In this document: piece after piece, positions 7,706-35,149 of the stretch | How positions within the stretch are numbered: the stretch's first letter is position 1 | Layout: each line of letters begins with the position of its first letter | Assembly (NCBI GenBank): GCA_017468385.1 | Contig: JAFUIQ010000031.1 | Location: forward strand, 1 to 42,868 | Length of the DNA stretch: 42,868 nt | Direction of reading: 5' to 3' | DNA from: Clostridia bacterium | GTDB lineage: Bacteria > Bacillota > Clostridia > Oscillospirales > CAG-272 | Notes under the pieces: generated by a model | The model's database searches: none | What the model was told of the DNA's origin: nothing | What the model saw: only the letters and a program-made list of their open reading frames with translations | Made by a program: the position numbers and the translations under genes

Positions 7706-7734
7706 AAAAGGCAAAGCGAAACGCTTTGCCTTTT
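7706..7734 (-). terminator. Terminator of the sugar-uptake operon
   Basis: A perfect 13-bp stem (aaaaggcaaagcg with cgctttgcctttt) and three-base loop, with A/T runs on both sides. It lies ten bases past the stop codon of the last gene and can act on both strands. Confidence 0.92.
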
Positions 7735-7743
7735 GCTTTTGTA

Positions 7744-8814
7744 TTAGCCGGTGATACCGGAGCGCTCGATACCCTGGATGATGTATCTCTGCATGAAGGA
7801 GTAGAGAATCAGCAGGGGGAGCAGAATCAGAATACCACAAGTATTGCGGATAGCGGCAACGTACATGTTTTCGCCCGCATACTTGGTATCCAGGGACTTG
7901 GGCACCTTGATGATATCGGGCATCAGGGTGGGTCCGCCGATGGTGTAGAACACTTCGGAGTAGAAGTTATCCGTCCACTGCCAGGAGAATGCGAACATGA
8001 AGACCGTGATCAGCATGGGCACAGACAGGGGAAGAATGATCTGGAAGAAGGTTCTGAACACGCCGGAGCCGTCCAGATATGCGGACTCTTCCAGTTCATC
8101 CGGAACGCCCTTGAAGAACTGACGGAGCATGAAGATGTACAGTCCGTTCTTGAATGCCAGGCCGGTGGCGGACATGATGATCAGAGGCCACATGGTGTTC
8201 AGCAAACTGATGGAGGTATCAGGCAGGATGTTGATCCATTCGAAGATACCGCCGCCCAGCAGATTGAACAGACCGCCGACTTCGCCAATCTTGAAGATAT
8301 CGAAGTAACGGAACTTCATAAACATGGACAACTGGATCGTGGAATGAGGAACGACCATCGTAAAGATAACCAGAAGGAACAGAAGACCGTTACCCTTGAA
8401 TCTAAACTTCGCGAAACCGTAACCAACCACGCAGCAAACGAAGGTCTGCAGAATAGCGCAGGCTCCGGAGAGGAGCAGCGTATTCAGGAAGGCCATGCCG
8501 TAGCCGTTGTCAGCAATGATGGCTTTGTAGGTGCCGAGAGTCGGCTGTTTGGGGATCAAACGAACCGTTACGTCTACGAAGTCGCTGGGACTCATGAAGG
8601 AGGACGCGATCTTCGAATAGAACGGGAACAGGATTACGTAGGAAATACCGAGCAGGAACAGGAACTTGAAAAGGTAAACCAGGACCTTCTTGAAGAAGAA
8701 GGTGTTTACGAATTTCGCCTTCAGACGTTCCATCAAAGGAGTACGTTCAAAGTCCACACGGATGCGATTCTTGGTTTCCTTGGTAATTTTGGTAGTTGTT
8801 TCAACATGATTCAT
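7744..8814 (-). CDS. Carbohydrate ABC transporter permease, MalG type (second pair)
   Basis: A 356-residue inner-membrane protein with about six membrane helices, the first near 45-68. The cytoplasmic EAA loop, which contacts the transporter ATPase, is visible at about 239-266 (DELEESAYLDGSGVF then ILPLSVP). The N-terminal tail of about 40 residues is long and charged. It would form a heterodimer with the product of the gene 18 bases upstream. It is the last gene of the seven-gene operon. GGAGG lies before the ATG. The substrate cannot be read from the sequence; the family transports oligosaccharides or related sugars. No ATPase gene is nearby, so a shared MsmX-like ATPase encoded elsewhere is likely. 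Confidence 0.92.
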   Translation of the reverse strand: MNHVETTTKITKETKNRIRVDFERTPLMERLKAKFVNTFFFKKVLVYLFKFLFLLGISYVILFPFYSKIASSFMSPSDFVDVTVRLIPKQPTLGTYKAIIADNGYGMAFLNTLLLSGACAILQTFVCCVVGYGFAKFRFKGNGLLFLLVIFTMVVPHSTIQLSMFMKFRYFDIFKIGEVGGLFNLLGGGIFEWINILPDTSISLLNTMWPLIIMSATGLAFKNGLYIFMLRQFFKGVPDELEESAYLDGSGVFRTFFQIILPLSVPMLITVFMFAFSWQWTDNFYSEVFYTIGGPTLMPDIIKVPKSLDTKYAGENMYVAAIRNTCGILILLPLLILYSFMQRYIIQGIERSGITG

Positions 8815-8832
8815 AAAAACGTGCCTCCTTTC

Positions 8833-9810
8833 TTAGTCTTTTCTCTGGTAGAACACGAATGCACCAACCAGACCGGCTACAGCGGCAATCATCAGGATGA
8901 CAATGAGGAAGTACATCCAGGACATGGCCGATGTGATCGGGTCACCGTAAGCCGTCGGGCTCTGGGATTCGATATACTTCATGACGGTATTGCTCGAAGA
9001 TGTGAAGGAGTCGATGACCGTATACACGGCATTTACCAGGATCATCGGGCTTACCATGGGAAGGGTGATCTTCCAGAAGGTTTCCCATCCGCTCGCGCCG
9101 TCGATGGAGCAGGACTCGTAGATGGCCGGGGAGATGGACTGCAGTCCGGAGAGGAAGATCAGCATCTGTACACCGGAGCGGTTGATGATGTTGAAGATGT
9201 TGTTAACCAACTCTGCAACATACTTAACCAGCTCGGTACCGATCATCATATCCCGGAACAGCAATTCGATATCCATGACGGACACGATCTCGGCCACCTG
9301 GCTCTCGCCGGAACCGGTGTCAATGCCTTCCGAGTCGCCCATGTAGTTGGCGAGGGTGTTGGAGGCGTCGATCTCTGCAATCAGACCGGTGGTCAGAAGT
9401 ACAGGGATGAAGAAGATCGCACGGAACGCTGCTCGTCCGGCGATCTTGCCATTCAGCAAGATCGCAACGAACAGAGAGAAGATAACGATAGCAGGAATGT
9501 CCAGAATGAGCTGGGTAACACCTTCGCCCAATTTCTGTACGAAGTTCGGGTCTACAAAGAGAGCGTTGCTGTAATTCTCAAAGCCAACCCAATCCAACTT
9601 GAAACCGCCGCCCGTCAGCATGCGGATATCGTGGAAGCTGTACTTGATGGAGTCGTAGATGATCGGCAGATACAGCAGCAGGAAACCGAGGATAAAGGGC
9701 ATTACGAACCACCAGCCAGCACGTGCTTTTCTCACGTCCAGAGATGCGCCGCGCTTTTTCTTTCGACCGGTAGAGGCGAACAGATCATTGTTTTTCACTT
9801 TTGCACTCAT
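8833..9810 (-). CDS. Carbohydrate ABC transporter permease, MalF/UgpA type (second pair)
   Basis: A 325-residue permease with a basic N-terminus, a first membrane helix near 33-55, and an EAA loop at about 228-254 (SPAIYESCSIDGASGWETFW). The segment between helices at about 145-200 is longer than usual and rich in acidic and Ser/Gly residues, suggesting an extended outer loop. It pairs with the permease just downstream. No solute-binding gene lies directly beside this pair; the only one in the operon is 7 kb upstream, next to the other pair. RBS AAAGGGGAG precedes the ATG. Confidence 0.92.
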   Translation of the reverse strand: MSAKVKNNDLFASTGRKKKRGASLDVRKARAGWWFVMPFILGFLLLYLPIIYDSIKYSFHDIRMLTGGGFKLDWVGFENYSNALFVDPNFVQKLGEGVTQLILDIPAIVIFSLFVAILLNGKIAGRAAFRAIFFIPVLLTTGLIAEIDASNTLANYMGDSEGIDTGSGESQVAEIVSVMDIELLFRDMMIGTELVKYVAELVNNIFNIINRSGVQMLIFLSGLQSISPAIYESCSIDGASGWETFWKITLPMVSPMILVNAVYTVIDSFTSSSNTVMKYIESQSPTAYGDPITSAMSWMYFLIVILMIAAVAGLVGAFVFYQRKD

Positions 9811-9827
9811 TATGTAACTCCCCTTTC

Positions 9828-12800
9828 TCAGTCGATTCGTACGAAGCCCAGAGCTTCGATGGTGTAGGTAGTGCCGTTATATACAACGGTGATGTCGAAC
9901 GAGTTGTAGTTCAGAAGGAAGTTTACGCCGCCTTCGTACTCAACGCGGACAACGGATCCGGCTGTGGTGGTGTACTTGGTCTTCACATACTCGGGTGCCT
10001 CATCCTCTGCGGATTCGGTTTCATCCGTGGTGTCGTCCGTAACATCCTCTTCCGGTGTTTCCACAGGAGCCACATAGGTCAGGCCGTGGAGCTCGGCGAA
10101 CAGACGCTCACGCTCCTGCTCTTCCTTCTTCTTGGCCTGAGCCGCCTGCGCTTCCTCTTCCGCCTTCAGAACCGCTGCCTCATCGGCTGCAATCTCATCG
10201 GCGTCGGGGATACGCTCTGCAAATACAAACTCATGATCCACGATCATAGAGGTCTGCAGATCCTTGGTAACTTCGTTCAGGGTGGTGTAGTGCTCAACCA
10301 CTTCATCCTTCCAGATATCGTAGGAAACGGAGTAGTATGCACTGAGCAGCATATCTTCCTTCAGAAGGCTGGTGTTCTGTTTGGAGAGGATGAAATACAG
10401 GCTGGAGCCGTTTTCAATCGCCTTCAGGATAGCAGACTTGATATCGCCTTCCATATTGATGGGAGAACCGGAGAAGTACTTGGATCCGTGGAGAACCATA
10501 CCGATGAACGGGATGGCCTCGCTGGCCTGGAGATAGCGGGAACTGTCGGTTGCGATGAACGCGATGTGGTTTGCGTACGGCAGGGTATATGCGTTACCGC
10601 CGTTGACCATCACATTCTCGTAATCCGCATCGATCTTCTGGAGGATTTCCATGGTGAACCTCTTGGAGTCCTCGCGGTTGTAAGGCTCATCCTCGTCGAA
10701 GTCGGAGTTCAAATCCGTACCGAGAGTGGAAACGGAAATGGACTTGGGCTCATACTTCGCATAGTTGGATGCGAACTTGTTGTAGAAGTACTCGTACACA
10801 GAGGGAGAAATGCAGAGGCTGAATATACTGCTGAAGGACTGGGTAGCCGCGTCATAGTTTCTCTTGCTGGTGTAACGATCGTCGATGGTCTTAACCGCAT
10901 GCTTGCGGAGGTTTACGCCATCGCCGAATTCCGAGTAACCCATATACGCAAAGTCGAAGTCCGGGAAGATACCGAAGTTCTTCTCATTGGAGTAGGCGAT
11001 CAGATCGCGGAATCCATCCGCGCCGCCGACCACGTCGTCCCACTTCAGATGGTAAGGCATGGTGGCATACATACCGCCGTTGGCATAGCCGGTCAGGCGG
11101 AAGTTGATGCGGCCTACACCCATCTCGGTAAGTTCGTCATACATAGCCTTGATGTCCTCAAAGGTGGTAAGGGGAACATCCACTTCCACGGGGAAGGACA
11201 GCACGCGCTTGGTAGTAACGGTAGAACCGAAGGTTTCGATGTACAGCGGGGTATTATCGGTGGTATCCGCCAGGGCAGTCAGAGCACCGTTCTGATACAG
11301 ATAATCGCGGTAAGCCTTCGCCATACCCACATAATCGGCGCTGTAGGTGTTTGTCAGATTGTTTGCCTCAGCAACCTTGTCATCGGTCAGCATCTTGAAC
11401 AGGATGCGGTAGCTGCCGGTGTACTTACGCTCGGACTCCACGGTCCAGGACGTATTGGCACCAACAGAAATGGATGCTGCCAAGTTATAGGAGTCGCTGG
11501 GACGGGGGGTAAAGATCGGATATACGGTGTTGAAGGAGTGGAGGGAACCGCCGTGGGAGCTCATCAGGGAGGTGAGGGAGTCACCTTCGGTGATGATGGC
11601 CAGGAATCCGTTGCTCTGCTTCAGTTCGCGCTCCACCTTCTGGGTTTCGGTAACTGCAGGAACAACCTTTCCGTCCGCATCGGTAGTCTCTTCGCTCACA
11701 ACGACCTCAACATCCTCTTTCCATGTCTTGTCGTAGTTGGTTACGTTACCGTACACAGGCCATCTCATGGTCTGGGTATGCTGATTGGAGATGGTATGGT
11801 ATGCGTAGTCCGCGCCATACATCTGACCGGAAACATTGTAACCGCCCTTAACATCCTCGTAACGGATCAGCGTACCGCTGCCGTCGGGGATCATGGTGTA
11901 GCCGGTGTAGGCATTGCTGCCGGCGCCGAAGTAGGGCAGAAGTGCCACAGTCTTCAGCTGGTAAGCAGATTCGTCGAAACGGATACCGTTGGCGGGAAGT
12001 CTGGCTTCCAGATCGCCGTCGGGAGTGATGGTATACTCGATAGCCAGCTTGAAGAGCGGCGGAGCAGCGTCATCGCCGGAATAACCGGTCATGTCGTGGT
12101 CATACTCCAGTTCTTCATAGGAGTACTCGGTACACCAGGTTTTGATGATGTTTTCAACCGTCTTTTTCTCTTTTGCCGAGGCGTTGTCGGAGTAGGTGTA
12201 GATCGCCATGGTCTGGGTTGCGGGGAATGCGGTCTGCATCTCGATGATCTGACGGTCGGTCAGAGAAGGATCAAAGGGGTCCTTCAGAGAGTAGAATGAC
12301 TCAACCTTACCCCACTGGAAGTCGTCCTTGATAGGCTCCAGGATCAACTTCTCAAAACGGGATTTTTCAATCATACGGGGTACCAGACGGGTGGTCTTTT
12401 CCTCACCCATCATGTACTCAACGCGAACACCGTTCTTGATGTTCTTGTAGGTAATCTGACCGCGGAGTGCAGCTTCCGTGTAGCTGTACATGGTTTTCTG
12501 CGCGCCGTTGTCGGTGAAGGTAATGATAAGCTGGGAAAGCAGCTGGGCTTTGGTGCTGTCTGTTGCCTTATTGTAAGTAGCAGCAATGTCCCACGGATTG
12601 GAGAAGAGGATCTGTCCGCTGGCGAGATCCTTATAGGCGATCTCACCGGTGAATTCCTCAAACCAGATCTGGTGACCGTTCTGCTCTCTTACCATGATCA
12701 TGTCCGCCAGCTTAGCTTCCGGATCGGTGTAGGCATCGGTTGTATACTTAATGATGGGCTTGCCATCACTATCAACTTTATCCTCCCACGCAGCGGAAAC

Positions 12801-12881
12801 GGGCTGAATGGACGCGGGAACAATGGCACCGAGTGCCATGACCAGGGACAGGACAGCGGATGTGATTCGTTTCATATTCAT
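9828..12881 (-). CDS. Large secreted DUF5696-like protein with a probable TIM-barrel domain
   Basis: A 1017-residue protein with a signal peptide (about 1-30, ending VSAAWED). The sequence resembles the DUF5696 family, which I recall from sugar ABC operons of Paenibacilli and Clostridia. The first half is beta-rich. The second half (about 540-830) has alternating strands and helices like a glycoside-hydrolase TIM barrel, with acidic motifs at strand ends such as FPDFDFAYMG and STLGTDLNSDFDED. A Glu/Lys/Ala-rich stretch (about 900-930) and an acidic linker precede a small C-terminal beta domain. A carbohydrate-active role is inferred, not shown. It sits between the NHL/Yip1 gene and the second permease pair, in the same transcript. 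RBS AAAGGAGAG precedes the ATG. Confidence 0.75.
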   Translation of the reverse strand: MNMKRITSAVLSLVMALGAIVPASIQPVSAAWEDKVDSDGKPIIKYTTDAYTDPEAKLADMIMVREQNGHQIWFEEFTGEIAYKDLASGQILFSNPWDIAATYNKATDSTKAQLLSQLIITFTDNGAQKTMYSYTEAALRGQITYKNIKNGVRVEYMMGEEKTTRLVPRMIEKSRFEKLILEPIKDDFQWGKVESFYSLKDPFDPSLTDRQIIEMQTAFPATQTMAIYTYSDNASAKEKKTVENIIKTWCTEYSYEELEYDHDMTGYSGDDAAPPLFKLAIEYTITPDGDLEARLPANGIRFDESAYQLKTVALLPYFGAGSNAYTGYTMIPDGSGTLIRYEDVKGGYNVSGQMYGADYAYHTISNQHTQTMRWPVYGNVTNYDKTWKEDVEVVVSEETTDADGKVVPAVTETQKVERELKQSNGFLAIITEGDSLTSLMSSHGGSLHSFNTVYPIFTPRPSDSYNLAASISVGANTSWTVESERKYTGSYRILFKMLTDDKVAEANNLTNTYSADYVGMAKAYRDYLYQNGALTALADTTDNTPLYIETFGSTVTTKRVLSFPVEVDVPLTTFEDIKAMYDELTEMGVGRINFRLTGYANGGMYATMPYHLKWDDVVGGADGFRDLIAYSNEKNFGIFPDFDFAYMGYSEFGDGVNLRKHAVKTIDDRYTSKRNYDAATQSFSSIFSLCISPSVYEYFYNKFASNYAKYEPKSISVSTLGTDLNSDFDEDEPYNREDSKRFTMEILQKIDADYENVMVNGGNAYTLPYANHIAFIATDSSRYLQASEAIPFIGMVLHGSKYFSGSPINMEGDIKSAILKAIENGSSLYFILSKQNTSLLKEDMLLSAYYSVSYDIWKDEVVEHYTTLNEVTKDLQTSMIVDHEFVFAERIPDADEIAADEAAVLKAEEEAQAAQAKKKEEQERERLFAELHGLTYVAPVETPEEDVTDDTTDETESAEDEAPEYVKTKYTTTAGSVVRVEYEGGVNFLLNYNSFDITVVYNGTTYTIEALGFVRID

Positions 12882-12903
12882 TTTATTCTCTCCTTTCCCC
12901 CGG

Positions 12904-15030
12904 TTACATGCGGTAATTTATTTCTACGATAATGCCGGAAATGAAGCCGACGATCTTCGCCATCAAGCTGGAGAACAGAAGCGCCAGGAACATGATAAAT
13001 GCCATACCGACAATCGTACCAACGGTCGTTGCCACGTTCTTCAGCATGGAGTAGTCATGGGTGACCATCATACCGAGGAACAAAAGGACAAACATCCAAA
13101 TGAATGCCACATCCACGAGCAGATTGATGATCTGCACCTCCGATGCTGCCAGAACGTTGGACAGGATAACGGAGGGAATGATGAGAAGCGGCATAGGAGT
13201 GAGGGAGTAGCAAGCGGCCACGAAGATATCCTTCAGGCTGCCTTCGCCCTCGAACAGGGTGGTCAGACACCAGTTTGCCACAACCCACAGAAGAAGCGGT
13301 ACGCTTACGGACAGGATCTGGCCGAAGATGTTCAGATAACCACTCTGACGGGGATTAAAGATATATCCGGTACCCACACCCTGGTAGGTAAACGCGGCGA
13401 TGGTAATCACCAGGATCAGGAACGCACTGCGGACGGAACCGCGCTTTTCGTGCTTCAGATCCCAGAAACCGTCGAAGGGATGGAAGATCAGGTGGAAGGG
13501 ATACAGCATCTCTTCCTTCAGACTCTTGCGTCCCACCTTCAGCTGTGCCTTCTTATTGATCTTGCCGGCGTAGCCGAAGAATTTACCGATCAGGACACAT
13601 ACGAGAACCACGCCGATGACCAGAACAACCAGCCACTTGGAGAGGATTCCCTTACGAACTTCCTTGAACGCGTTGGAGTAGTTGGTGGTATCGAATGCGG
13701 CACGGTAGTATTCCATAGCCTCTTCGTAGTCACCGCTGCGGTACAGCGCCTTACCGATTCCAATATACGCTGCGTCGTAGTTGTTGTTACGCTTCAGGAT
13801 CTCCGTCCAGTCGTCGATAGCCACGTCGTAAATACGGGCATTCTGGTGAGCCAGCGCATCGATCAGCAGATCACCGTACTCGGTGCGGCGGTATACCGTG
13901 ATGCAGTCCTTGCTCTTATCCAGAAGCAGGATCTTGGATCCCTGATAAGCGATCGCCTCGATGTTCTCGATGTTACCGGTCTGGATACCCTTATCACCGA
14001 AGATGAAGAGGCAGGCGCCGTCTTTATCGTAGGTGTACACCTTGGAACGCTTTTCGTCGATGATGGACCAGGTTCCCTCAGGACCAACGGCCGCATCAAT
14101 GATACGGGAAGCACCGGTGATGGCATTCAGCGAAGAAGTGGAGGGAGCTACCTCACCGCCGGGGCCGAAGAAGCCGTTACGTCTCATAACGTCCGCACCG
14201 GAAGCATTCAACTTCTTAACAGCGGCATTTTCACCGCTCTTGTTCTGAATAGATTTCATCTGTTCAGAATCGGTGGGGGCATCGGTGGTGATGTAGATGA
14301 AGTTGTCTTCATCGATGGTGATGTTGTTGTACTCCGTGGGGATGTACGCGGAGCTCAGCTCACGCTGTGCATCGGTCTGGAGGTTTCTCCAGAGGATCTC
14401 GATGGGAGAAATCTCAACCTTGGCAGCACCGATAAATCCGTGGAATCCACCGTCGTCACTCATAACGATGATACCCTGATAGGTAGTAGAGGAAACAACG
14501 AACAGACGACCGTAGGAGTCAACGGCAACCGCTACCGGCTTGTAGATCGCGCCCTCGTCGAAGAGGTCGCTGACTGGCTGGGGGATCACCTTATAGAAGG
14601 TGCCGTCCAGATGGAACATAACGATACGGTTGTTGTTGGAGTCACAAACGTAGATGTACTTGTCATTGACAAACACGCCGGAAGGATCGGAGAAGCTGTC
14701 CGGAACACCGTGGGAGTTCACGAAGGTAGCGATCTCAAAGCGAACTTTCAGGTATTTGTCCAGGCAAATCACGCGCGCGTTCTTTGCATCTACCAGATAA
14801 ACGTTTTCATCGGGACCTACAAACAGATCGCGGGGATCGTCCAGCGCCTTTGTCAGGCCCATGTAGCTGGAATTCACCACCATATCCGGGACATAGGCCT
14901 CAGGGGAGTTCAAAACGAACTTGGTGGAAGAATATGTATAGGTTGCGTAGGGGGCTGCTGCGCCGACCACGGTGGTCAGCATCATCAGCAGTGCCAGAAC
15001 GGTAAGCAGAACCTGTGATAATCTCTTCAT
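12904..15030 (-). CDS. NHL beta-propeller, TPR and Yip1 membrane-domain protein
   Basis: A 708-residue protein with a signal sequence (about 1-24). Residues about 60-410 carry repeated NHL/propeller strands such as DPRDLFVGPDENVYLVDAKN and DPSGVFVNDKYIYVCDSNNN. A TPR-like helix pair follows (about 413-445, YDAAYIGIGKALYRSGDYEE), then one membrane helix (about 460-480) and a C-terminal Yip1-type membrane domain with several helices (about 515-705, including YSLTPMPLLIIPSVILS). The propeller would lie outside the cell and the last domain in the membrane. NHL propellers bind proteins, RNA or ligands, so a sensor or scaffold role for the transporter is a reasonable guess. It lies between the first permease pair and the DUF5696-like gene. 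RBS AAGGAGG precedes the ATG. Confidence 0.82.
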   Translation of the reverse strand: MKRLSQVLLTVLALLMMLTTVVGAAAPYATYTYSSTKFVLNSPEAYVPDMVVNSSYMGLTKALDDPRDLFVGPDENVYLVDAKNARVICLDKYLKVRFEIATFVNSHGVPDSFSDPSGVFVNDKYIYVCDSNNNRIVMFHLDGTFYKVIPQPVSDLFDEGAIYKPVAVAVDSYGRLFVVSSTTYQGIIVMSDDGGFHGFIGAAKVEISPIEILWRNLQTDAQRELSSAYIPTEYNNITIDEDNFIYITTDAPTDSEQMKSIQNKSGENAAVKKLNASGADVMRRNGFFGPGGEVAPSTSSLNAITGASRIIDAAVGPEGTWSIIDEKRSKVYTYDKDGACLFIFGDKGIQTGNIENIEAIAYQGSKILLLDKSKDCITVYRRTEYGDLLIDALAHQNARIYDVAIDDWTEILKRNNNYDAAYIGIGKALYRSGDYEEAMEYYRAAFDTTNYSNAFKEVRKGILSKWLVVLVIGVVLVCVLIGKFFGYAGKINKKAQLKVGRKSLKEEMLYPFHLIFHPFDGFWDLKHEKRGSVRSAFLILVITIAAFTYQGVGTGYIFNPRQSGYLNIFGQILSVSVPLLLWVVANWCLTTLFEGEGSLKDIFVAACYSLTPMPLLIIPSVILSNVLAASEVQIINLLVDVAFIWMFVLLFLGMMVTHDYSMLKNVATTVGTIVGMAFIMFLALLFSSLMAKIVGFISGIIVEINYRM

Positions 15031-15043
15031 TATTATTACCTCC

Positions 15044-15919
15044 TTAGTCCTTCATACCGCTGGAACCCATCGTCTCGATGATGTTACTCTGGGAAATAAC
15101 GAATACGAGGATAGGAACCATCATCATGACCACCGTTGCAGCTGCGCTGGCGCCTGCACGGGCAACACCGCCGGCGGTGATCTGGCCGATTGCGTAGTTC
15201 AGTGTCTTCAGCTCTTCGCTGTACACATAGGGGGATGCGCCTGCGTTCCACAGACCCTGGAAGCAGTAGATGATCAGAGTCAGCCATGCGGGCTTAACCA
15301 TAGGCATGGCGATGGTCCAGAAGGTCTTCATCTCGGAAGCACCGTCCAGACGGGCACTCTCCAGAACTGCGGAGGATACGTTGGAGTCCATGAACTGTTT
15401 CATCAGGTACAGACCCAAGGTAGAACCGAACGCGGGGATAATGATTGCCCAGTAGGTATCAACCCAGCCCAGAATGGACATGGTGATGAAGTTAGCGATG
15501 CTGGTAACCGTAGAGGAGAACATCAGCGCGGTACGGATCAGCTTGAACATCCACTTGTGACCCGGGAAGGGGATCTTAGCCAGCGCGTAAGCGGCCATGG
15601 AGGAAAGCATCAGGTTACCGAATGTACCGACTACGGAGATGAACACCGTATTGAAGATGTAACGGGAGAAGGGCACCCAGGAGTCGCCCATCAGGCTGAA
15701 CAAGCTCTTGAAGTTGCCCAGGGTGGGAGAAACCACGTAGAAGCGGGGCGGGTAGATCCACAACTCAGCCATAGGCTTTACGGAGTTCATCAGGATGTAC
15801 AGCATGGGGAGAAACATGAATGCGCCGAAAATGGTGAGGATGATACTGATCACGGTGTCGCCGCCGGCACTGCGGTTAAGGACAACGCGATGTTTTCTTG
15901 TTCTTAATTTCTTTGCCAT
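15044..15919 (-). CDS. Carbohydrate ABC transporter permease, MalG type (first pair)
   Basis: A 291-residue permease of the usual MalG length with about six membrane helices, the first near 22-45. The EAA loop is clear (VLESARLDGASEMKTFW, near residues 190-206). It begins one base after the stop of the MalF-type gene, so translation is probably coupled. It is more typical in length than the MalG-type protein of the second pair. It should form the channel that receives sugar from the binding protein encoded two genes upstream. Confidence 0.95.
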   Translation of the reverse strand: MAKKLRTRKHRVVLNRSAGGDTVISIILTIFGAFMFLPMLYILMNSVKPMAELWIYPPRFYVVSPTLGNFKSLFSLMGDSWVPFSRYIFNTVFISVVGTFGNLMLSSMAAYALAKIPFPGHKWMFKLIRTALMFSSTVTSIANFITMSILGWVDTYWAIIIPAFGSTLGLYLMKQFMDSNVSSAVLESARLDGASEMKTFWTIAMPMVKPAWLTLIIYCFQGLWNAGASPYVYSEELKTLNYAIGQITAGGVARAGASAAATVVMMMVPILVFVISQSNIIETMGSSGMKD

Positions 15920-15920
15920 A

Positions 15921-16865
15921 TCACTGTCCCACCTTTGAAAGCAGTTTGGATATCGCCATATTGGATCCGATCATCATCAGGAACAATACAAACGATATAG
16001 CGGAGGCATAACCAACTTCCCAACGGGTATTCTGATACTCATTCAGATGGTGAGAAATCGTATATGCTACGTAGTTTACGGACGGATGACCTGCCAGGGT
16101 GGTTACGATACCGCCGAAGCTGAATGCACCGGTGATGGAAAGCACCGCACCGAAGAGCAGCTGAGAGTGCATGTTCGGCAGGGTTACGTACCAGAGCTCC
16201 TGCCAACGGTTCTTGATACCGTCCACGGCAGCGGCCTCAAACTGTGCCGAATCGATACCCTGCAGACCTGCGATAAAGGACAGGAAGGAGGTACCGAGGG
16301 AGGTCCACAGTGCGACCACAATACAGAGGCCCATAACGTATTTTTCGTTCTGGAACCACAGAATAGGAGCATCGATCAAACCCCAGGAGAGGAGTTTACC
16401 GTTGACCCAGCCGTAGGAGTCGCTGGCGAACAGCGTCTGCCAGATCAGGTATGCGTTACCGGAAATGGAGGGCGCATAGAAGATCAGAGTAACGATGGCA
16501 CGAATCTTAGGCGGGAGCTCGTTGATGAACCACGCAACCAGGAAGGAAAGAATATAGGATGCGGGACCAACGATAGCGGCGAAGATCAATGTATTCTTCA
16601 GAGCGGTGATCCAAAGATCATCGTCGAGGAACAAAGTAACGTAGTTATCGAGGAAGATGAATTTCGGGGTCTGCAACATATTAAATGTTGTCAAACTCAG
16701 AAAGAGCGATGCAACGACCGGGATAACCGTGAAGATCAGGAAGATGATCATGAAGGGCGCAACCATGAAATAAGCAACCTTATGCTGTTTCATCTGGAAC
16801 CATGTCCACTGCGCCTTTGTCATCTCGGTGCGTGTCGCAGTCTGTGAAGCGACTTTCTTTGACAT
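15921..16865 (-). CDS. Carbohydrate ABC transporter permease, MalF type (first pair)
   Basis: A 314-residue inner-membrane permease with about six helices, the first near 33-57. The EAA loop is near residues 215-242 (SAQFEAAAVDGIKNRWQELW). It follows the solute-binding gene by 35 bases, with AAGGAGAA before its ATG, and is followed almost directly by its MalG-type partner. This order (binding protein, MalF, MalG) is the standard core of a CUT1 sugar importer. Confidence 0.95.
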   Translation of the reverse strand: MSKKVASQTATRTEMTKAQWTWFQMKQHKVAYFMVAPFMIIFLIFTVIPVVASLFLSLTTFNMLQTPKFIFLDNYVTLFLDDDLWITALKNTLIFAAIVGPASYILSFLVAWFINELPPKIRAIVTLIFYAPSISGNAYLIWQTLFASDSYGWVNGKLLSWGLIDAPILWFQNEKYVMGLCIVVALWTSLGTSFLSFIAGLQGIDSAQFEAAAVDGIKNRWQELWYVTLPNMHSQLLFGAVLSITGAFSFGGIVTTLAGHPSVNYVAYTISHHLNEYQNTRWEVGYASAISFVLFLMMIGSNMAISKLLSKVGQ

Positions 16866-16900
16866 TGCTTTTCTCCTTAATCAGAATTTTCGAATCGGGA

Positions 16901-19900
16901 TTATTCGTACAGTTTGTAGGTTGCCAGCGCGTCGGCTGCCTCGGTGAGGTAGATCGCGATCTGTGCCAGCGTTTCATCGTTTGCGGATCTTGCGAACTTC
17001 TCAGCCACGCCTCTCATAGCGTCCACATCCTCGTTCTCCAAGGCTGCGGTGGCGGCCGCAATTTCTGCATCGTATCCGGTCAGTTCGGTCATCAGATCAA
17101 TGGCCTGGCCCGTACGCTTTTCTGCCAGCGTCTGGCCGATCTCCAGAGTCTCGTAGTCGAACTCGGTACGTTTACGATTGATTTCTTTATTGATCGTATT
17201 GATGTAATTAAGGAGCGAGTCTACAGGATCGAGCATCTTATTGTAGGCATCCAGGAAAGCAAATCCGGTATAACGATCGATGATGTAGCTGCCGGGGTAT
17301 GCGTGCTCGGCGCGGAGGTTGTTCATCTGCAGCGCCAGGTTCTCATACTCGCTGGAGGACCAGGGCAGCTCTTCCAGTGCCTCGCGGTTAGCGGTTGCAT
17401 TCTTAGCCGCAGGACCCATGATGGCAACGAGCTCGTTGGAGTAGTCCACCTGGAAATCGCGGTCAACCCACCAATCCATGAACTTCCATGCGTTCTCGGT
17501 GTTCTTGCAGCCCTTCATCATAACGATGGCGGCTACGGTGGAAGGAGATGCGTTGTTGATATTGCCCGCCTCGTCCTCGATACCGGGCAGCGGAACCATT
17601 TCCCACAAGCCGGCAATTTCGGTTGCGAAGAGGATCATCTGGTTGTATTCCGTGTAGGATACAACGCCGATAGGCATTTCACCGGTCTTGAAACGGTTTG
17701 CAAAGCTGTAAGTGTAAGGCAGGGAGTACTGTGTAAACATGTTACACATATCCTCGAAGGATTCCAGAACCAGGTTGGAGTCCAGATTGACTCTCATACC
17801 GTCGTCCACCCAGAGGCGGCCGCCCATCTGATACATGAACAGAGCGTAGGCATTCGGCAGACCGATCTGCATGTTATTGAACTGCAGAACGGGAACCATA
17901 GCCATCAACTCGTCCCAGGTCTTGGGAACTTCCAGGCCCAGATCGGCCAGGATGTCCTTACGGTAGAACATCATCCAGAAGGTCTGTGTCTCGGGCAGAC
18001 CGTAGGTCTTACCGTACAGAGTCAGCGGAATGATAGCTGCCTCGGTAAAGCGATCGCATACTTCGTCGAATGTATCGAAATCGTTCAGAGGAAGAACCGC
18101 ACCACGAATAGCGTACTGGATCGGATCGGCACCGTCAAGGGCAACGTCCGGACCAACGCCTGCGAGAACGGAAGGAAGAAGAGTACCGCCGGCAACCAGC
18201 TTCAGATCGACGCCGATGCCGCTTTCGGGAGTAAACTTATCGTCCACCAGATTACGCATGATGGTAGCCTGGTCACGGCCGGTAACCATCCATGCGGTTA
18301 CAGCGTCGCCGCCCTTCTCTTCGCCGCCCAGGGTGTTATAATCAGCGAAGAAGCTTCCGAAGAACATCTTCAATTCGTGCCAGATGCTCTCAAAGAAGTT
18401 GGCCTTTGCCTTCGGCAGTTCGGCAGATGCACCCTGGATCTGGATATAGTCCACTTCCAGGGACTGATTGGATACATTGGTCAGCCATGTACCCATGGTA
18501 CCCACGTTATCCTTCAGGGTCTTCAGGTTGCGGGCGATCTGATCCTCGTCCGTACCCATCTTCTCCAGAAGAACAGCTACCTGCTCCAGAGTACCGGTGT
18601 ACTGGCTCTTACCGCCGTTCACGCTTGCCATGTAATCGATGATCTCGTACAGGTTCATGCTCTCGAGAATCATGGACTCGATGGTGTCGGGCATAACGCG
18701 GGTGAAGCCGTAGTCACGGTACCGGTCGGGGGTAACGCCGGTCAGCTTCATGATCTGCAGATAAGCGTCGTCGATGGTGGAAAGGGACTCGGATACGCGG
18801 CGAACGATGTCACCCATATCACCGAGAGTTACTTCCAGGCGGAGGGTGTGATCACCGGGCTCCAGGTAGAACTGGAAGCCGCCCTTATCCGTACCGTCGT
18901 TCAGCGGGCCAACCTGCCAGTCGGTGTTGAAGTCGAAGCGGAGGTAGTTACACTCCTCGAAAGGAACCTTGCCGTCGATGGTCAGCTTACGGGATACGTA
19001 CAGACCGCTCAACTCAGACTGCTTGAAGCGCAGGTTGATGGTGTACAGACCGGCGTTGTCTACGTGGAAGTTGTATTCAATCCACTGGCCGGTGGTCTGC
19101 CACTTCTCGCTGCCGATGGTATTACGCATGATCTTGGTAGCATGCTGGGGCTCCGTGATAGCGGAGGTTCTGTCATAGATCGGGTAGATCGTATATTCAG
19201 AAACGTACGCCGGCAGCTCCGCATCCAGATGGATCACATCGGTGCCCTCGGTGTAGCCCTTCTTGGCATACTCTTCCAGTTTCTCCTCGTATGTGGGCAG
19301 ATCCTCATACGGATAGAGGCGGATGGAGGCAATGACGATATCCTCACGAACGCCTTCCAGAGAAATGGTATTGTCACCCTTCTCGAAATAGAATTCGAAG
19401 GGGTTGGCATAATATGTACCGGCGTCAGCGATGGTATACTTGGTCCATCTCCGCACCAGAGAGGTTACAGGGCGCAGCTCACTGCCGGTGGAATCCAGCT
19501 TAAAGCGGCCGTTCTCTGCATCGTAAGCGTGCTCCCAGGTCTTGGTCAGATTGATATAGCGCGCTTCTTTGAAAGGAACCCTGTCATTGATATAGAACAT
19601 ACGCTCGATGGAGTTGGTTTTGGTAGACTCCGAGCAGTACTCGATTTCAACGACATAAAGACCTGTCTTGGGAATCGAAACAGGCCAGGTTACTTTGCCC
19701 GTATCATCAATATACAGGCAGTTCTTCTTGGTTTCGCCGAACGCATCGGAAACGCTTGCGCGCACTTCCGTCTTTGCATCCGTGGAATCAGCGATGTATT
19801 TGGTTACATCGATTACCACCTCGGTGCCGCGGGCGGCATCCGGGTGCTTTTCCCGATACTCCGCATAAGAAATTGCGTTCAGGGATTCACTGATTTCTTT

Positions 19901-20026
19901 CAGCGTCGTTGTGTGGAGACTGCTCTGCTCATCGGACTCCGCCGCATAGACGGGCACGAGACAGCCAGCCAACATCAAAAGCGACAGCAAGAAAGCCATC
20001 AGTCTTCTCGTGGGGTTTCTTCTCAT
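16901..20026 (-). CDS. Very large multidomain sugar-binding lipoprotein of an ABC importer
   Basis: A 1041-residue protein, more than twice the usual size of an extracellular family 1 solute-binding protein. The signal peptide ends in LAGC (C22), a good lipobox. Two beta-rich modules (about 65-250 and 275-430) share motifs such as GLYVVEIEYCSES with RMFYINDRVPFKEARY, and GLYTINLRFKQSE with RKLTIDGKVPFEECNY, so they look like duplicated carbohydrate-binding domains. A helical region follows, then the solute-binding domain (about 575-950) with GVGPDVALDG, MFYRKDILADLGLEVPKTWDEL and AWKFMDWWVD. The C-terminal ~90 residues are helical and charged. It is the first gene of the operon; AGGAGG precedes the ATG. 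Fused binding modules could dock the lipoprotein on a polysaccharide; that is inference. Confidence 0.9.
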   Translation of the reverse strand: MRRNPTRRLMAFLLSLLMLAGCLVPVYAAESDEQSSLHTTTLKEISESLNAISYAEYREKHPDAARGTEVVIDVTKYIADSTDAKTEVRASVSDAFGETKKNCLYIDDTGKVTWPVSIPKTGLYVVEIEYCSESTKTNSIERMFYINDRVPFKEARYINLTKTWEHAYDAENGRFKLDSTGSELRPVTSLVRRWTKYTIADAGTYYANPFEFYFEKGDNTISLEGVREDIVIASIRLYPYEDLPTYEEKLEEYAKKGYTEGTDVIHLDAELPAYVSEYTIYPIYDRTSAITEPQHATKIMRNTIGSEKWQTTGQWIEYNFHVDNAGLYTINLRFKQSELSGLYVSRKLTIDGKVPFEECNYLRFDFNTDWQVGPLNDGTDKGGFQFYLEPGDHTLRLEVTLGDMGDIVRRVSESLSTIDDAYLQIMKLTGVTPDRYRDYGFTRVMPDTIESMILESMNLYEIIDYMASVNGGKSQYTGTLEQVAVLLEKMGTDEDQIARNLKTLKDNVGTMGTWLTNVSNQSLEVDYIQIQGASAELPKAKANFFESIWHELKMFFGSFFADYNTLGGEEKGGDAVTAWMVTGRDQATIMRNLVDDKFTPESGIGVDLKLVAGGTLLPSVLAGVGPDVALDGADPIQYAIRGAVLPLNDFDTFDEVCDRFTEAAIIPLTLYGKTYGLPETQTFWMMFYRKDILADLGLEVPKTWDELMAMVPVLQFNNMQIGLPNAYALFMYQMGGRLWVDDGMRVNLDSNLVLESFEDMCNMFTQYSLPYTYSFANRFKTGEMPIGVVSYTEYNQMILFATEIAGLWEMVPLPGIEDEAGNINNASPSTVAAIVMMKGCKNTENAWKFMDWWVDRDFQVDYSNELVAIMGPAAKNATANREALEELPWSSSEYENLALQMNNLRAEHAYPGSYIIDRYTGFAFLDAYNKMLDPVDSLLNYINTINKEINRKRTEFDYETLEIGQTLAEKRTGQAIDLMTELTGYDAEIAAATAALENEDVDAMRGVAEKFARSANDETLAQIAIYLTEAADALATYKLYE

Positions 20027-20268: not shown

Positions 20269-20297
20269 ATAATAGCATACAAGCCCTCAAAAGTCAA
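20269..20297 (-). promoter_or_regulatory. Sigma-A promoter of the sugar-uptake operon
   Basis: On the minus strand: TTGACT (20292-20297), 17-bp spacer, TATTAT (20269-20274). It is the only good promoter found ahead of the seven genes, whose gaps are all short. Confidence 0.8.
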
Positions 20298-25581: not shown

Positions 25582-28500
25582 TTATTTGTAGAGCTCCAGC
25601 TCATAGATGAACTGGTACTGACCGTTTCCGGAGTAACCGAAAGCGTTGAAATCAGTAGGAGCAACTGCTACATACTTAGCGCCGGTAACACCGGTCAGCT
25701 CGATCTCAACCAGCCAGTAAGCGTTGCCATTCTCGTGAATGTGCTTAACCCACTTGCCATTTGCGTACAGGTCCTTAACGGATGCTGCAACAGTCCAGTT
25801 CTCGCCGTCAGCGGAAACCAGAACGTCCAGATCATCGAACAGGGACTTGTAACCCTGGTAGTCGTCAGCAGCGAACAGACGGAGAACCTTCAGATCGGAA
25901 GCAGATGCAACCTTGGTGATGAATGCACCAAAGTATGCAGCCTCGTTACCGCTGTTCTTGGTGTTCTTCAGCTGAGCGTCGTACTTGGTAGCGAAAGAAT
26001 GATACTTCAGAACAGAACCGTTCTTCTGCCAGCCCTGAGGAGCGGTGTCACCATCATACATGAAGGTGGAGTGGTCGAAGGAGGTTCCGTAGACGTGAGG
26101 ATAGAAGTTCAGCATGCCGGGGTTATCGCCGGACAGCTGATCTGCAGCCAGATCCAGGTCATCAGCGATTGCCAGACCGGTCAGCTTGGTCAGCTTGGTA
26201 GCGGTGATAACGGGAGCTGCAGTGTAGGTAGCATCAGCAACCTTGAAGGACAGACCGTCGATGGTAACAACCAGATCGGTGTACTCACCCTCGATCTGAA
26301 CGTCGGTTACGTCCAGAGCGCTATCGAACTTAACGGTAACAACAGTCTCGTTCTTCAGAACGTTGGATGCATGAACAACTTCAGCAGCAACGCCTGCAAC
26401 GGTAGCCTCAGTGGTGGTCTCGGTAGCCAGAACTACGGGAGCGAAGCTATCGAAGAATACCATAGCGGACATGTTAGCGTAGTCATACATTACGTATGCA
26501 ACTACAGCAGTGGTGTCGGTACCAATGGTTCTCTCGGTGAACGCATTGTCAGCGTAACCCTTCCAGGTAGCACGCTTGCCGGTCTCAGTGCGGTCAACGA
26601 AGGTAACGTTAGCCATCAGTTCCTTCTCGATAGCGGCGTAAACGTCGGTAGCGGTAGGATCATTGGTGAAGTCACGATCGTAGATTACTTCGTACATGTT
26701 CTGAGCCATAGCCTGTCTCAGAGCGGTGTAGGAAGCGAAGTGGCCGGTAACACCAGCGGGAATTGCGGGATGAGTGTAGTCGAGTTCTTCGGGCAGACCT
26801 GCGCCTACTACGTAAGCGGTGTAAGCCTTGCCGTTGTACTTACCGGTTGCAAACTCAGTGGAAGCAACTTCCTTCATGGAGTAGGTGTCCATGGTCTTCA
26901 GAACCTTATTGGTTGCCTGATAGATAGCACCCTCTACCATGGGAACGTAAGTGCCGTTGAACTTGTCGTAAGCCAGAGCGGAGTCATAGGTTACGAACTC
27001 GATAGCGCCAGTTCTCAGGTTGGTCATGAAGTGACCGTATACGAACTGACCGAAGAAGTTCTGGTTGTAGTACTTGTCTACTTCCTTGTTGTACAGCCAG
27101 TAATCAACGCCTTCAGTTACATTGCCGAGGATCGGACCAAGGTTGGTGTTCAGATCAGCAATTGCAACGAACTGGTTGTTCTTAGCCTTGTAGAAGTCAA
27201 GACCCATCAGCTCAACAGTGGACAGCTTGCCCTGGAACATATGAATCTTGTCACCCTGCAGGATGATCCACAGATCCTTGTCGCTGGTAGCAACGCGGTT
27301 AGCGCCGTCGAATTCGCCATCCTTGTCAACGCCGAGGATGTAGCCGAAGTTGTTTACGTATACGTTCTTATCCTTTGCATAGGGCTCGCCAGCCTCGATG
27401 AGGTTGTAGCTGCCGTCTTCTGCAACGTAGCGAACCTTGTAAACCTTCTTCAGTTCTACGGGCAGGGGATAATCCTTAACGGTCAGACCGAGGTCAGCCA
27501 TCTGCTTCAGCAGAGTGAAGAGCTCGTAGTCGAAGCCGCCCAGGTTCCAGCCGTTCAGCTCGCTGATGGTGATCTCAGCATAGCCGCCTGCAACGGTGGA
27601 GTAAGCCATAGCCTTCAGACCGTCCTCAGTGAAGTCGGTGAAGGAGTCGAGGATTACGTAGTTGTCTGCATCGGAAACCTCTGCAACGAAGATGATGTTG
27701 CCGTTCAGAACGTACATGGTTACGTACTTGTTCCAGAAGTTGCGCAGGTAGTTAGCAGTAGCGGATGCGCATGCAGCCTGCTGCTTGCCAAACTGTGCGG
27801 GAACGTAAGCGGTGGTGTTAACAACGCCGAAGTAACCGAAGGGCAGGGTCTCATAGTTGGAACCGAAGATTACGCTGTTAGTAGTAGCATCGTAACCGCG
27901 GAGGTATGCATTGAATACGTAGGTGTTGTCGTTCTCGTCAGCCTTAGCGCCGCCAACAACTTCAACGATCTCGAGCTCGCGGCCGCCAGCAACGCCGTCA
28001 GCCATGTAAGCTACGAAGAAGTCGCCAACAGCAACCTTGTTCAGAGCAAGGCCGGTGAAGCGCCAGTCTGCGATGGTGCAGTCGATCTTTTCGGAAGCAA
28101 CAGCATCAATGCCGTTTACAGGAGCAGTGTAGCTAACTACAGAGAAGGTCTTGTCGGCCTTTGCAGTCAGTCTGAACAGCTCATACTGACGAACGGTTAC
28201 GCGATCGTAGTCGCCGTCGCCGTCGATGTCAGAAGCGATTGCCTTGTAGTAATCGTAAGGAACACCGTAATCCTTGTTGATCTTGGTGTTGATGTAAGCG
28301 TCTGCGCCGATGTTGGAGAAGCCTTCAACGGTAGGAGTTACCAGCTCGAGGAGAGCGAGAACTTCTTCGTCAGACATCTTGGTGTAGGTGGTCTTGCCGG
28401 CCTCATCAGTGCCTACGAGGAACCACATATCAACCAGTGCGCTGTAGAGAGCGTAGGGGGTGAAGGGGTTATCTACGGAGTAGATGTTGCCGTTAGCAGC

Positions 28501-29580
28501 CAGAACGTACTTGCTGGAAGCGAGGCCAGCCTTAACTGCGCCGAATGCCTTAAATACCTTGATCTCACGGATGCCGGAGAGGGTACCCTGGTTGTTGGTG
28601 ATGTTGGTGTAGTCTACACCTACGGGAAGAATGGTGTACTGAGTCTTGCCCAGCTTGATCTTACCGTCAGCAACGGTAACGTCCTTCTTCTCGGTGGTGT
28701 TCTCGAATACCTCAGACAGGCTCTCGCATGCGAGGAACTCAGAGAAGTTGTTCTTGTGGGTCAGCTTCAGGGTAGTACCCAGAAGAGCGTTTGCCTGAGC
28801 AACGTTCTTAACGCCGATAGCCTTGAAGGGTGCGTAGTACTCGGTACCCATGGGCTCGCCGTCAACGTCAACAGCTGCAACGCGAACCATGCCAGCCTTG
28901 ATGGACTTGGAAGCGTCTGCGCCGTAAACAGCCTGCTCAGTAGCGGTAACCATAACGATGGTCTCAGCTACGCCGAATGCGGTCTCAGCAAGGGTTGCGC
29001 CTGCGATCTCTGCGTTCAGAGCGTTGTACAGGAGCTGTGCGATAACTTCGCGCTTAACTTCAACAGTGTAGGTAACACCGGTGATGCCGTCAAGAACGCC
29101 AAGCTCGCGAGCCTTGTTGATGTAGCTCCAGGGATATCCGCTTGCGGGATAGTTGAAGCCCAGAGCACGTACGATCATAACGATCGCATCGCGGTAGGTT
29201 ACGTTATCGAAGGGAGCGAATTCGCCGCCGCCGATACCGTTAACGATTCCCTGCTGTGCTGCGTAGGATACGCCGCCCAGACCTTCAGCATCGAGAGCAT
29301 CGATGTCGGTGAAGCCGGAATCGTTCACTTCAGTCTCCCAGTATGCCTTGTCGACACGACCGGTAGACATACGAGCAGTGAACAGCGCCATCTGATAGCG
29401 CAGAACCTGATCGTCGGAGCCATCTTCGCCGTCACCATAGCCCTTCCACAGGCCGATGGCTGCCAGATAATCGATGGCTGCCTGGTAGTCAGACTCGCTT
29501 TCGGTCTCTGCTGCGAATACAGCAGGAACCATGCTGATGATCATCAGCATAGCGAGCACCAGAGAAAGAATCTTTTTCAT
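25582..29580 (-). CDS. Giant S-layer-homology surface protein with a discoidin-like C-terminus
   Basis: A 1332-residue secreted protein. A signal peptide (about 1-23, MISMVPAVFAAE) is followed by three SLH modules (about 30-75, 85-140 and 145-195; for example EFAPFDNVTYRDAIVMIVRALGF), which bind secondary wall polymers and hold the protein on the cell surface. The long middle part (about 200-1140) is beta-rich, aromatic and acidic; I do not recognise a domain in it. The last ~180 residues resemble an F5/8-type discoidin domain (DLDVLVSADGENWTVAAS, GAKYVAVAPTDF), a carbohydrate- or surface-binding fold. The codon use looks like that of a highly expressed gene. AGGAGATC precedes the ATG. It could be an S-layer protein or an adhesin. 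The opposite strand also has a long open frame, a by-product of the codon bias. Confidence 0.88.
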   Translation of the reverse strand: MKKILSLVLAMLMIISMVPAVFAAETESESDYQAAIDYLAAIGLWKGYGDGEDGSDDQVLRYQMALFTARMSTGRVDKAYWETEVNDSGFTDIDALDAEGLGGVSYAAQQGIVNGIGGGEFAPFDNVTYRDAIVMIVRALGFNYPASGYPWSYINKARELGVLDGITGVTYTVEVKREVIAQLLYNALNAEIAGATLAETAFGVAETIVMVTATEQAVYGADASKSIKAGMVRVAAVDVDGEPMGTEYYAPFKAIGVKNVAQANALLGTTLKLTHKNNFSEFLACESLSEVFENTTEKKDVTVADGKIKLGKTQYTILPVGVDYTNITNNQGTLSGIREIKVFKAFGAVKAGLASSKYVLAANGNIYSVDNPFTPYALYSALVDMWFLVGTDEAGKTTYTKMSDEEVLALLELVTPTVEGFSNIGADAYINTKINKDYGVPYDYYKAIASDIDGDGDYDRVTVRQYELFRLTAKADKTFSVVSYTAPVNGIDAVASEKIDCTIADWRFTGLALNKVAVGDFFVAYMADGVAGGRELEIVEVVGGAKADENDNTYVFNAYLRGYDATTNSVIFGSNYETLPFGYFGVVNTTAYVPAQFGKQQAACASATANYLRNFWNKYVTMYVLNGNIIFVAEVSDADNYVILDSFTDFTEDGLKAMAYSTVAGGYAEITISELNGWNLGGFDYELFTLLKQMADLGLTVKDYPLPVELKKVYKVRYVAEDGSYNLIEAGEPYAKDKNVYVNNFGYILGVDKDGEFDGANRVATSDKDLWIILQGDKIHMFQGKLSTVELMGLDFYKAKNNQFVAIADLNTNLGPILGNVTEGVDYWLYNKEVDKYYNQNFFGQFVYGHFMTNLRTGAIEFVTYDSALAYDKFNGTYVPMVEGAIYQATNKVLKTMDTYSMKEVASTEFATGKYNGKAYTAYVVGAGLPEELDYTHPAIPAGVTGHFASYTALRQAMAQNMYEVIYDRDFTNDPTATDVYAAIEKELMANVTFVDRTETGKRATWKGYADNAFTERTIGTDTTAVVAYVMYDYANMSAMVFFDSFAPVVLATETTTEATVAGVAAEVVHASNVLKNETVVTVKFDSALDVTDVQIEGEYTDLVVTIDGLSFKVADATYTAAPVITATKLTKLTGLAIADDLDLAADQLSGDNPGMLNFYPHVYGTSFDHSTFMYDGDTAPQGWQKNGSVLKYHSFATKYDAQLKNTKNSGNEAAYFGAFITKVASASDLKVLRLFAADDYQGYKSLFDDLDVLVSADGENWTVAASVKDLYANGKWVKHIHENGNAYWLVEIELTGVTGAKYVAVAPTDFNAFGYSGNGQYQFIYELELYK

Positions 29581-34945: not shown

Positions 34946-34976
34946 AATACCTGCTCCTTTTGAGATGTGTATGTCC

Positions 34977-35006
34977 ATTAGACGAGTGAAACCCGGAAAT
35001 GTTTCG
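34977..35006 (-). promoter_or_regulatory. Predicted ECF-sigma promoter of the macroglobulin-like gene
   Basis: On the minus strand: CGAAACATTT with GAAAC at 35001-35005, a 16-bp spacer, and CGTCTAAT (34977-34984). This fits the GAAAC-N16-CGTC pattern of sigma-M/W/X-type ECF promoters. The start codon follows about 25 bases after the predicted transcription start, and no sigma-A pair competes in this gap. Confidence 0.65.
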
Positions 35007-35109
35007 GGAAAATAACAAAAAATAGCCCCCGGCCATGCCAAAGCCCGTTTTGGGGCGTGTTGTCATCCATGCGGTGCGCACCGGATGGGACGCGTGCCGC
35101 ATTCCCGCC

Positions 35110-35138
35110 TTGACAACGCCGTCCCGGCGTGCTATACT
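35110..35138 (+). promoter_or_regulatory. Sigma-A promoter driving the cobalamin riboswitch
   Basis: TTGACA (35110-35115), 17-bp spacer, TATACT (35133-35138). The start site lies just before the riboswitch. Confidence 0.88.
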
Positions 35139-35149
35139 TACCCCATCGC

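Follow-up and report, generated by a model that had tools for sequence, protein, structure and literature searches.

Contig JAFUIQ010000031.1 of a Clostridia bacterium from the Oscillospirales group CAG-272 (42,868 nucleotides, hereafter the window) carries seven closely spaced genes on its minus strand. From 20026 to 7744, they encode a giant solute-binding protein (SBP1), a permease pair (MalF1 and MalG1), a protein combining NHL, TPR-like and Yip1 parts (YIP), a DUF5696 protein and a second permease pair (MalF2 and MalG2). We find that this set is a conserved unit composed of two modules: module A (SBP1, MalF1, MalG1) and module B (YIP, DUF5696, MalF2, MalG2). Relatives often carry additional binding proteins near the locus; in the window's family their homologues are dispersed over the genome and can exceed the permeases in number. 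With confidence close to an even balance, we propose that module B acts as a hub, an importer that receives its ligands from many dispersed binding proteins and has dedicated extracytoplasmic parts.

Conservation of the seven-gene set

We analysed 84 loci: 80 stretches picked by hand around DUF5696 matches, some genomes contributing several, and four named loci retrieved by a search with a window protein. The loci were chosen on DUF5696 alone. Profiles of the seven proteins recovered the order SBP1-MalF1-MalG1-YIP-DUF5696-MalF2-MalG2, on one strand, in 68 of them, where “canonical” stands for profile matches in order and a few parts are truncated or broken (for example in L065 and L122). All 24 loci of the window's group (20 of its family plus the four named ones) are canonical, as are 31 of the 39 from the rest of the order and 13 of 21 outside it, the latter coming from 18 genomes. 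Loci L073-L076 were counted with the window's family because the window protein had retrieved them and most of them cluster with it in trees (L074 is weakly placed). Because it is repeated in relatives, the arrangement goes beyond chance. A preliminary description of this DNA had taken the two permease pairs for parts of one unit, a view that an order found in no relative would have contradicted; the order is instead widely kept.

Thirteen loci are partial, several of them reaching contig ends. Module B occurs without module A in the fetched stretches of L112, L113 and L117, and DUF5696 stands alone, without importer genes, in L137 and L139, near metallophosphoesterase-like and Amidase_3 proteins. 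In L122, MalG1 lies in two pieces about 1.6 kb apart, with an opposite-strand open reading frame (ORF) of 442 amino acids in between.

The co-occurrence that the same description suggested looking for is pronounced. Of the 295 genomes examined from the window's order, 161 match PF18952 (DUF5696), 153 of them over the cut-off; in a phylum sample of 398 genomes 46 do, 39 of them over the cut-off. Within the order, 149 genomes have DUF5696 at E<1e-20, 140 match a profile of the Yip1 domain and 144 one of the N-terminal half of SBP1; the three markers are found together in 139 (Fisher P for co-occurrence between 1e-66 and 1e-77, shared ancestry being ignored). None of the 295 genomes has the Yip1 domain without DUF5696, and nine have a strong DUF5696 match without the Yip1 domain. 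All three markers are present in 23 of 24 relatives of the window's family. One family member, G167, matches DUF5696 just weakly and has neither the Yip1 nor the SBP1 marker. Of seven stretches fetched around weak DUF5696 matches in other genomes, five were inspected by eye and resembled other TIM-barrel glycosidases of GH13- or GH36-like type. A scan of the viral_contigs set with the MalF1 profile found no relative.

In the open full-text literature, that is, outside subscription-only papers, we met no mention of the word DUF5696 and, in the titles and opening lines of abstracts covered, no apparent description of the seven-gene set.

Two modules with separate patterns of divergence

The division into modules is drawn from block swaps and from patterns of divergence. 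In three of the 84 loci (L120, L124 and L126) YIP-DUF5696-MalF2-MalG2 precedes SBP1-MalF1-MalG1. For pairwise distances, loci without single copies were left out, which kept 70 loci and the window (71 sequences); divergence correlates with a mean r of 0.88 within module A, 0.93 within module B and 0.81 across them. The contrast is sharp when the analysis is confined to the window's group (25 sequences): r amounts to 0.81-0.86 within A, 0.79-0.85 within B and 0.21-0.62 across, and the A|B partition ranks first among all 35 possible splits into three and four genes. There, the divergence of YIP follows that of MalF2 (r 0.79) far better than that of MalG1 (r 0.41), though YIP adjoins MalG1. The propeller/Yip1 protein, earlier pictured as an insertion between the two pairs, does not separate equal halves: block swaps and, in the window's family, divergence place it with the second permease pair.

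One link between the modules stands out. YIP and SBP1 show the strongest cross-module correlation of the window's group (r 0.62), exceeding those of SBP1 with DUF5696, MalF2 and MalG2 in at least 99.9% of bootstraps. As the module B protein that tracks SBP1 best, YIP may bridge both modules. In this group the tree of module A largely agrees with that of module B, although their rate shifts differ and some placements are in conflict; we therefore claim covariation of divergence, not exchange, and horizontal mixing of the modules is not claimed. The idea that one permease pair is a recent copy of the other was rejected, since the between-pair cross-scores are far below the within-pair scores.

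The same correlation can be read as a sign of a single polymer machine, in which SBP1 would capture a polymer for a DUF5696 protein held by YIP, and both pairs would take up products of one route. Near-total co-occurrence, tight gene spacing and a CBM35-like stretch in SBP1 agree with this scheme. We consider it quite improbable, given the module-specific shifts in divergence, the further binding protein found near 17 of the 21 loci outside the order (see below) and a second catalytic acid of DUF5696 that is not strictly conserved.

Binding proteins beside the cluster in relatives

An ordinary solute-binding protein (SBP2), mostly of 435-540 amino acids, is encoded in the stretch around the cluster, at distances of up to 3.3 kb, at 17 of 21 loci outside the order, at 9 of 39 in the rest of the order and at none of the 24 in the window's group; the gene of L127 is on the other strand. 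Ten of the proteins counted, originally found as SBP_bac_1 flanks, also trained the SBP2 hidden Markov model (HMM), which was built without the apiosidase-like protein of L113. In the swapped loci L120 and L124, SBP2 is placed 516 and 96 bases upstream of module B, respectively. Two plasmids illustrate the arrangement: pNP243 of Butyrivibrio fibrisolvens joins GH43 and two extra annotated binding proteins to the complete set, and a plasmid of Paenibacillus cellulosilyticus has ugpC as the first gene, followed by the complete set and two extra binding proteins. Four genes for LLM-class flavin-dependent oxidoreductases lie among those of the extra binding proteins in the latter cluster (L208), which hints that the substrate is unusual.

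Flanking ORFs were sampled on a wider scale, with 51 scanned out of 121 picked outside the order and 66 out of 80 within it. Outside the order SBP_bac_1 is found in 15 of the 51, and the flanks include GH26, GH10, GH28, GH30, GH31, GH35, pectate lyase and LacI. Among the best 25 of 99 families in the in-order flanks, none occurs in more than 4 of the 66; ROK is found in 4, and GH26 and GH4 once each.

Dispersed binding proteins in the window's family

The window's own genome has six genes for proteins resembling solute-binding proteins without a permease nearby, four of which are matched by the SBP2 profile of relatives with 59-82 bits. In comparison, of its five binding-protein loci beside permeases, one scores 29 bits with that profile and four have no match. 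In a tree, the four orphan proteins fall among cluster-adjacent SBP2, with modest support and long branches, and share a cysteine at the lipobox position with seven other aligned SBP2. Three orphan genes lie in tandem on contig C16 of this genome (L209).

A profile of SBP2-type proteins that includes four from the window's genome (A12) matches 28 of 30 family genomes at E<=1e-8. It finds nine homologues in the window's genome and at least 52 in G702, a family member of 3.6 Mb (L216-L228), at least 20 in G690, at least 18 in G704 and at least 14 in G693; the last four counts are lower bounds, since 52 candidates were scored in each genome out of 208, 67, 61 and 86, respectively. In G167, which has no cluster, no homologue was found at E<=1e-8. 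The relation to cluster-adjacent proteins does not depend on A12: the nine dispersed proteins of the window's genome score 59-82 bits with an independent HMM built only from cluster-adjacent binding proteins outside the family, and all nine, together with all full-length proteins in the 13 G702 stretches inspected, match this HMM at E-values from 1e-15 to 1e-34.

These findings do not support the preliminary description on one point, the lack of a separate binding protein for the second pair. In relatives, one or two ordinary ones are encoded close to the cluster, and the window's genome has nine dispersed homologues. Of the two solutions offered at the time, a binding protein shared by both pairs or uptake of the products of DUF5696, neither took account of binding proteins near the locus or dispersed over the genome.

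The dispersed proteins are mostly remote from permeases. Those encoded less than 10 kb from any BPD_transp_1 permease number none of nine in the window's genome, two of 52 in G702 and none of the 17 tested among the at least 20 matches of G690; the two in G702 adjoin amino-acid-type and Opp-like permeases. G702 and G690, both with complete and canonical clusters, encode just 13 and 10 BPD_transp_1 permeases, so that binding proteins exceed them; in the window's genome, with nine dispersed binding proteins against 23 permeases, the excess is less sharp. Besides those of the cluster, G690 has two Opp-like permeases, two PotBC-like, one of the amino-acid type and a single one unclassified by NCBIfam. 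Because these six belong to other types or are unclassified, no MalF/MalG-type pair beyond the cluster's two was found in its 91% complete assembly. The nine others in G702 are two of Opp-like and three of amino-acid type, plus two pairs of sugar type, one of which (contig C21, L231) is located beside HlyD/RND adaptor-like and MacB-like proteins, with no binding protein there.

To survey the surroundings of orphan binding proteins, 42 neighbours were picked, of which 35 were scanned along with five further ORFs. The best 25 of 54 families in these 40 neighbours include MGH1-like/GH63 (two), GH36-type, GH38, GH127, GH109-type, GH123-like and DUF6259.

The data may alternatively be explained by two self-sufficient importers for different substrates that are merely co-transcribed, with DUF5696 as a plain secreted glycosidase and the dispersed binding proteins sensing or serving other transporters. 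Such separable halves are indeed indicated by block swaps and module-wise divergence, and by module B occurring without module A in three fetched stretches; sensing, too, has been proposed for orphan binding proteins of the TTT family (PMC5994714). It is the homology of the dispersed proteins to cluster-adjacent ones, their distance from permeases and the lack, in G690, of a detected MalF/MalG-type pair other than the cluster's two that make this explanation unlikely in our opinion.

Several observations also weigh against the hub proposal. The contrast between modules is weak in the 46 sequences outside the window's group (0.88 within A, 0.86 within B, 0.83 across): the within-B correlation is above the cross-module one in 99.3% of bootstraps, and YIP is closer to MalF2 than to MalG1 in just 38%. 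SBP2 tracks module B better than MalF1/MalG1 in just 84% of bootstraps, and its divergence follows SBP1 nearly as well as module B. Two of the six permease-free genes of the window's genome (L197 and L199) reach 14 bits or have no match with the SBP2 HMM. G198 carries the cluster and yet has no A12 homologue at E<=1e-8, and the contrast given by G167 comes from a single genome. Among genomes rich in binding proteins, the cluster was checked directly in G702 and G690 only; the assemblies are drafts with some contigs of a few kb, from which permeases may be missing. Glycosidase domains occur in about seven of the 40 scanned neighbours, as judged from the best 25 of 54 families, next to many unrelated genes. 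Lastly, the sensory role considered for TTT orphans could apply here (PMC5994714).

Module A and the permeases

SBP1 (16901-20026, 1041 amino acids) has an SBP_bac_1 core (Pfam, E 6.8e-24) and, as read by eye, a signal peptide with the lipobox LMLAGC at residues 17-22; its CBM35-like stretch is situated in the N-terminal half. The closest solved chain by profile comparison is Lin1841 (5ysb, E 5.6e-30), which is linked to beta-1,2-glucooligosaccharides, in line with the titles of papers.

Pfam recognizes BPD_transp_1 in all four permeases, MalF1 (15921-16865), MalG1 (15044-15919), MalF2 (8833-9810) and MalG2 (7744-8814): three are above the cut-off, and MalF1 attains 24.0 bits against a cut-off of 26.4. 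Each of them keeps the EAA loop, whose glutamate and glycine are conserved in 95-100% of the 71 sequences, so both pairs should couple to an ATPase. The window's cluster has no ATPase gene. A UgpC-type ATPase is encoded elsewhere in the same genome (C21; 487.9 bits, cut-off 432), and an ATPase of the UgpC/MsmX type is the candidate partner of both pairs, in keeping with the general ATPase that had been supposed to be borrowed.

YIP and DUF5696

YIP (12904-15030, 708 amino acids) is composed of a signal peptide, an NHL propeller, a TPR-like stretch, a transmembrane helix and a Yip1 membrane domain with the motif HPFDGFWDLKHEKRG. Of the three parts initially ascribed to it, NHL and Yip1 (PF04893, 61.4 bits, cut-off 28.6) are above their Pfam cut-offs; every TPR match is below its own. 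One gene encodes YIP in the window's group; elsewhere it is frequently split over two neighbouring genes, of which 26 YIP-YIP pairs were counted.

A propeller-TPR-Yip1 protein is unusual for an importer, and AraC-type, LacI-type or two-component genes stand beside the loci of some relatives. Module B could then be mainly a transport-coupled sensor, or transceptor, with YIP reporting flux and import by the second pair being minor. This we hold to be very improbable: the EAA loop for ATPase coupling is kept in all four permeases, and no kinase or other signalling family matches YIP in Pfam at E<=0.01.

The DUF5696 protein (9828-12881, 1017 amino acids) is predicted to be secreted, having a signal peptide and no other hydrophobic segment in a hydropathy scan. 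It would therefore need a partner to be retained at the cell, and YIP is the obvious candidate. At E<=0.01 PF18952 is its only Pfam match (E 9.2e-136); Glyco_hydro_129 does not appear. A search of 149 genomes with the latter model is uninformative, since it was empty in the controls as well. Compared with the PDB, a profile of 22 DUF5696 sequences finds DagB (5opq/8rzg, E about 3e-10) and the GH129 enzyme NagBb (5wzn, 1.6e-7). The similarity to DagB spans the N-terminal domain and the initial portion of the TIM barrel; the C-terminal stretch is collinear with DagB and by itself not significant. Judging from these profiles, the protein, recognized early on as DUF5696-like, is probably glycosidase-like in fold, similar to DagB and GH129 enzymes.

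DagB is a GH129-like 3,6-anhydro-D-galactosidase that its authors assign to a new family (PMC5698469). Mutation of Asp486, Glu517, Glu531 or the partner-chain Asp202 is reported to inactivate it, and of the two catalytic residues of NagBb it shares only Asp486 (PMC5698469). Residue D727 of the window protein may correspond to DagB Asp486 and NagBb Asp435, according to positions counted by hand in a sub-threshold alignment; this position is aspartate in 24 of 25 sequences of the window's group, 21 of 39 in the rest of the order and 19 of 21 outside it. In the same alignment DagB Glu517 would fall on N760, a position occupied by an acidic residue in 19 of 25 sequences of the first group, at least 7 of 39 of the second and 9 of 21 of the third. 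By this alignment, a second catalytic acid is not strictly conserved.

Layout and signals of the locus

The gaps between the seven genes, taken from the ORF list in the direction 20026 to 7744, are 35, 1, 13, 22, 17 and 18 bases. Together with the Pfam assignments, they corroborate the compact one-strand layout reported at first. Two signals had been proposed at its ends. At 7706-7734 (minus strand) a terminator-like hairpin with a T-rich tail directly follows the MalG2 stop codon, as anticipated; the hairpin adjoining this last stop codon is followed by TTTTCTTTT. The candidate sigma-70 promoter at 20269-20297 (minus strand, TTGACT-17-TATTAT) is well placed yet unproven, because such matches are not above chance for the region (13 observed, 13.2 expected in shuffles).

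An Rfam search of the window found no riboswitch at the seven-gene set. A cobalamin riboswitch (RF00174, 62.5 bits) lies far from it, at 35105-35320 on the plus strand. Two very long ORFs are present on the minus strand, at 25582-29580 (1332 amino acids) and 29843-35041 (1732 amino acids). All ORFs are mechanical calls, some of them possibly spurious.

Comparison with known systems

Like CUT1 importers of the MalEFGK2 type, the set has an SBP_bac_1 binding protein and MalF/MalG-type permeases with EAA loops; its candidate ATPase, of the UgpC/MsmX type, is encoded either apart from the cluster or within it. It differs from them in that a conserved unit holds two pairs of permeases, as seen in 68 canonical and 3 swapped loci out of 84, in the propeller/TPR/Yip1 and glycoside hydrolase (GH)-fold proteins tied to the second pair, and in the many dispersed binding proteins.

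TTT transporters are not of the ATP-binding cassette (ABC) type. Their orphan binding-protein expansions in Bordetella and Rhodoplanes nonetheless resemble the present case in combining many binding proteins with very few membrane components: Bordetella has up to 181 binding-protein genes and at most four representatives of the membrane components (PMC5994714). That system is proteobacterial, the parts of PMC5994714 consulted mention no accessory proteins like YIP or DUF5696, and the cluster permeases are BPD_transp_1, not TctA/TctB. By analogy, an ABC sugar importer supplemented with dedicated parts would here follow the many-receptors design known from TTT.

A Yip1-family membrane protein as a dedicated partner of an ABC transporter has a precedent in Bacillus, where YknW modulates assembly of YknWXYZ (PMC4887032). 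The latter is an exporter, and the consulted portion of PMC4887032 does not mention a propeller/TPR part. As for GH129 NagBb (5WZN) and DagB (5OPQ), DUF5696 shares with them a significant profile similarity over the N-terminal domain and the beginning of the TIM barrel; it differs by the lack of a conserved second-acid position and of a GH129 Pfam match, and by a gene tied to an importer.

A model for the seven-gene set

We now propose how the set may work. The seven genes would constitute two ABC sugar importers kept together. Module A would be the conventional one, with the N-terminal carbohydrate-binding part of SBP1 binding a glycan and handing an oligosaccharide to MalF1/MalG1. Module B would join MalF2/MalG2 to the NHL/TPR/Yip1 protein, anchored in the membrane, and to the DUF5696 protein, GH129-like and secreted. 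Its ordinary binding proteins would be interchangeable: most relatives outside the order encode one or two near the locus, and in the window's family such proteins would have grown in number and spread over the genome, in part to sites next to genes for glycoside hydrolases. We infer that any dispersed binding protein could dock on the shared MalF2/MalG2 port, for which the propeller/TPR part may be the docking station; DUF5696 would trim or present glycan at this port. A UgpC/MsmX-type ATPase encoded elsewhere would power both permease pairs.

More tentatively, and with some doubt, the model can be extended to a universal glycan port, where MalF2/MalG2, with YIP as a docking tower and a GH-fold presenter, would replace dozens of separate sugar transporters and serve tens of interchangeable, dispersed binding lipoproteins. 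If so, the seven-gene set would be essentially the sole ABC sugar importer in some members of the family, such as G690.

The set is widespread: 139 of the 295 genomes sampled from the order have all three of its markers, and DUF5696 recurs across the phylum, for the most part next to the same genes. The hub reading gives the Yip1-domain protein and DUF5696 a testable role. If module B is such a hub, dozens of orphan binding proteins would gain a transporter, and permease counts and gene neighbourhoods would badly underestimate the sugars that these bacteria import.

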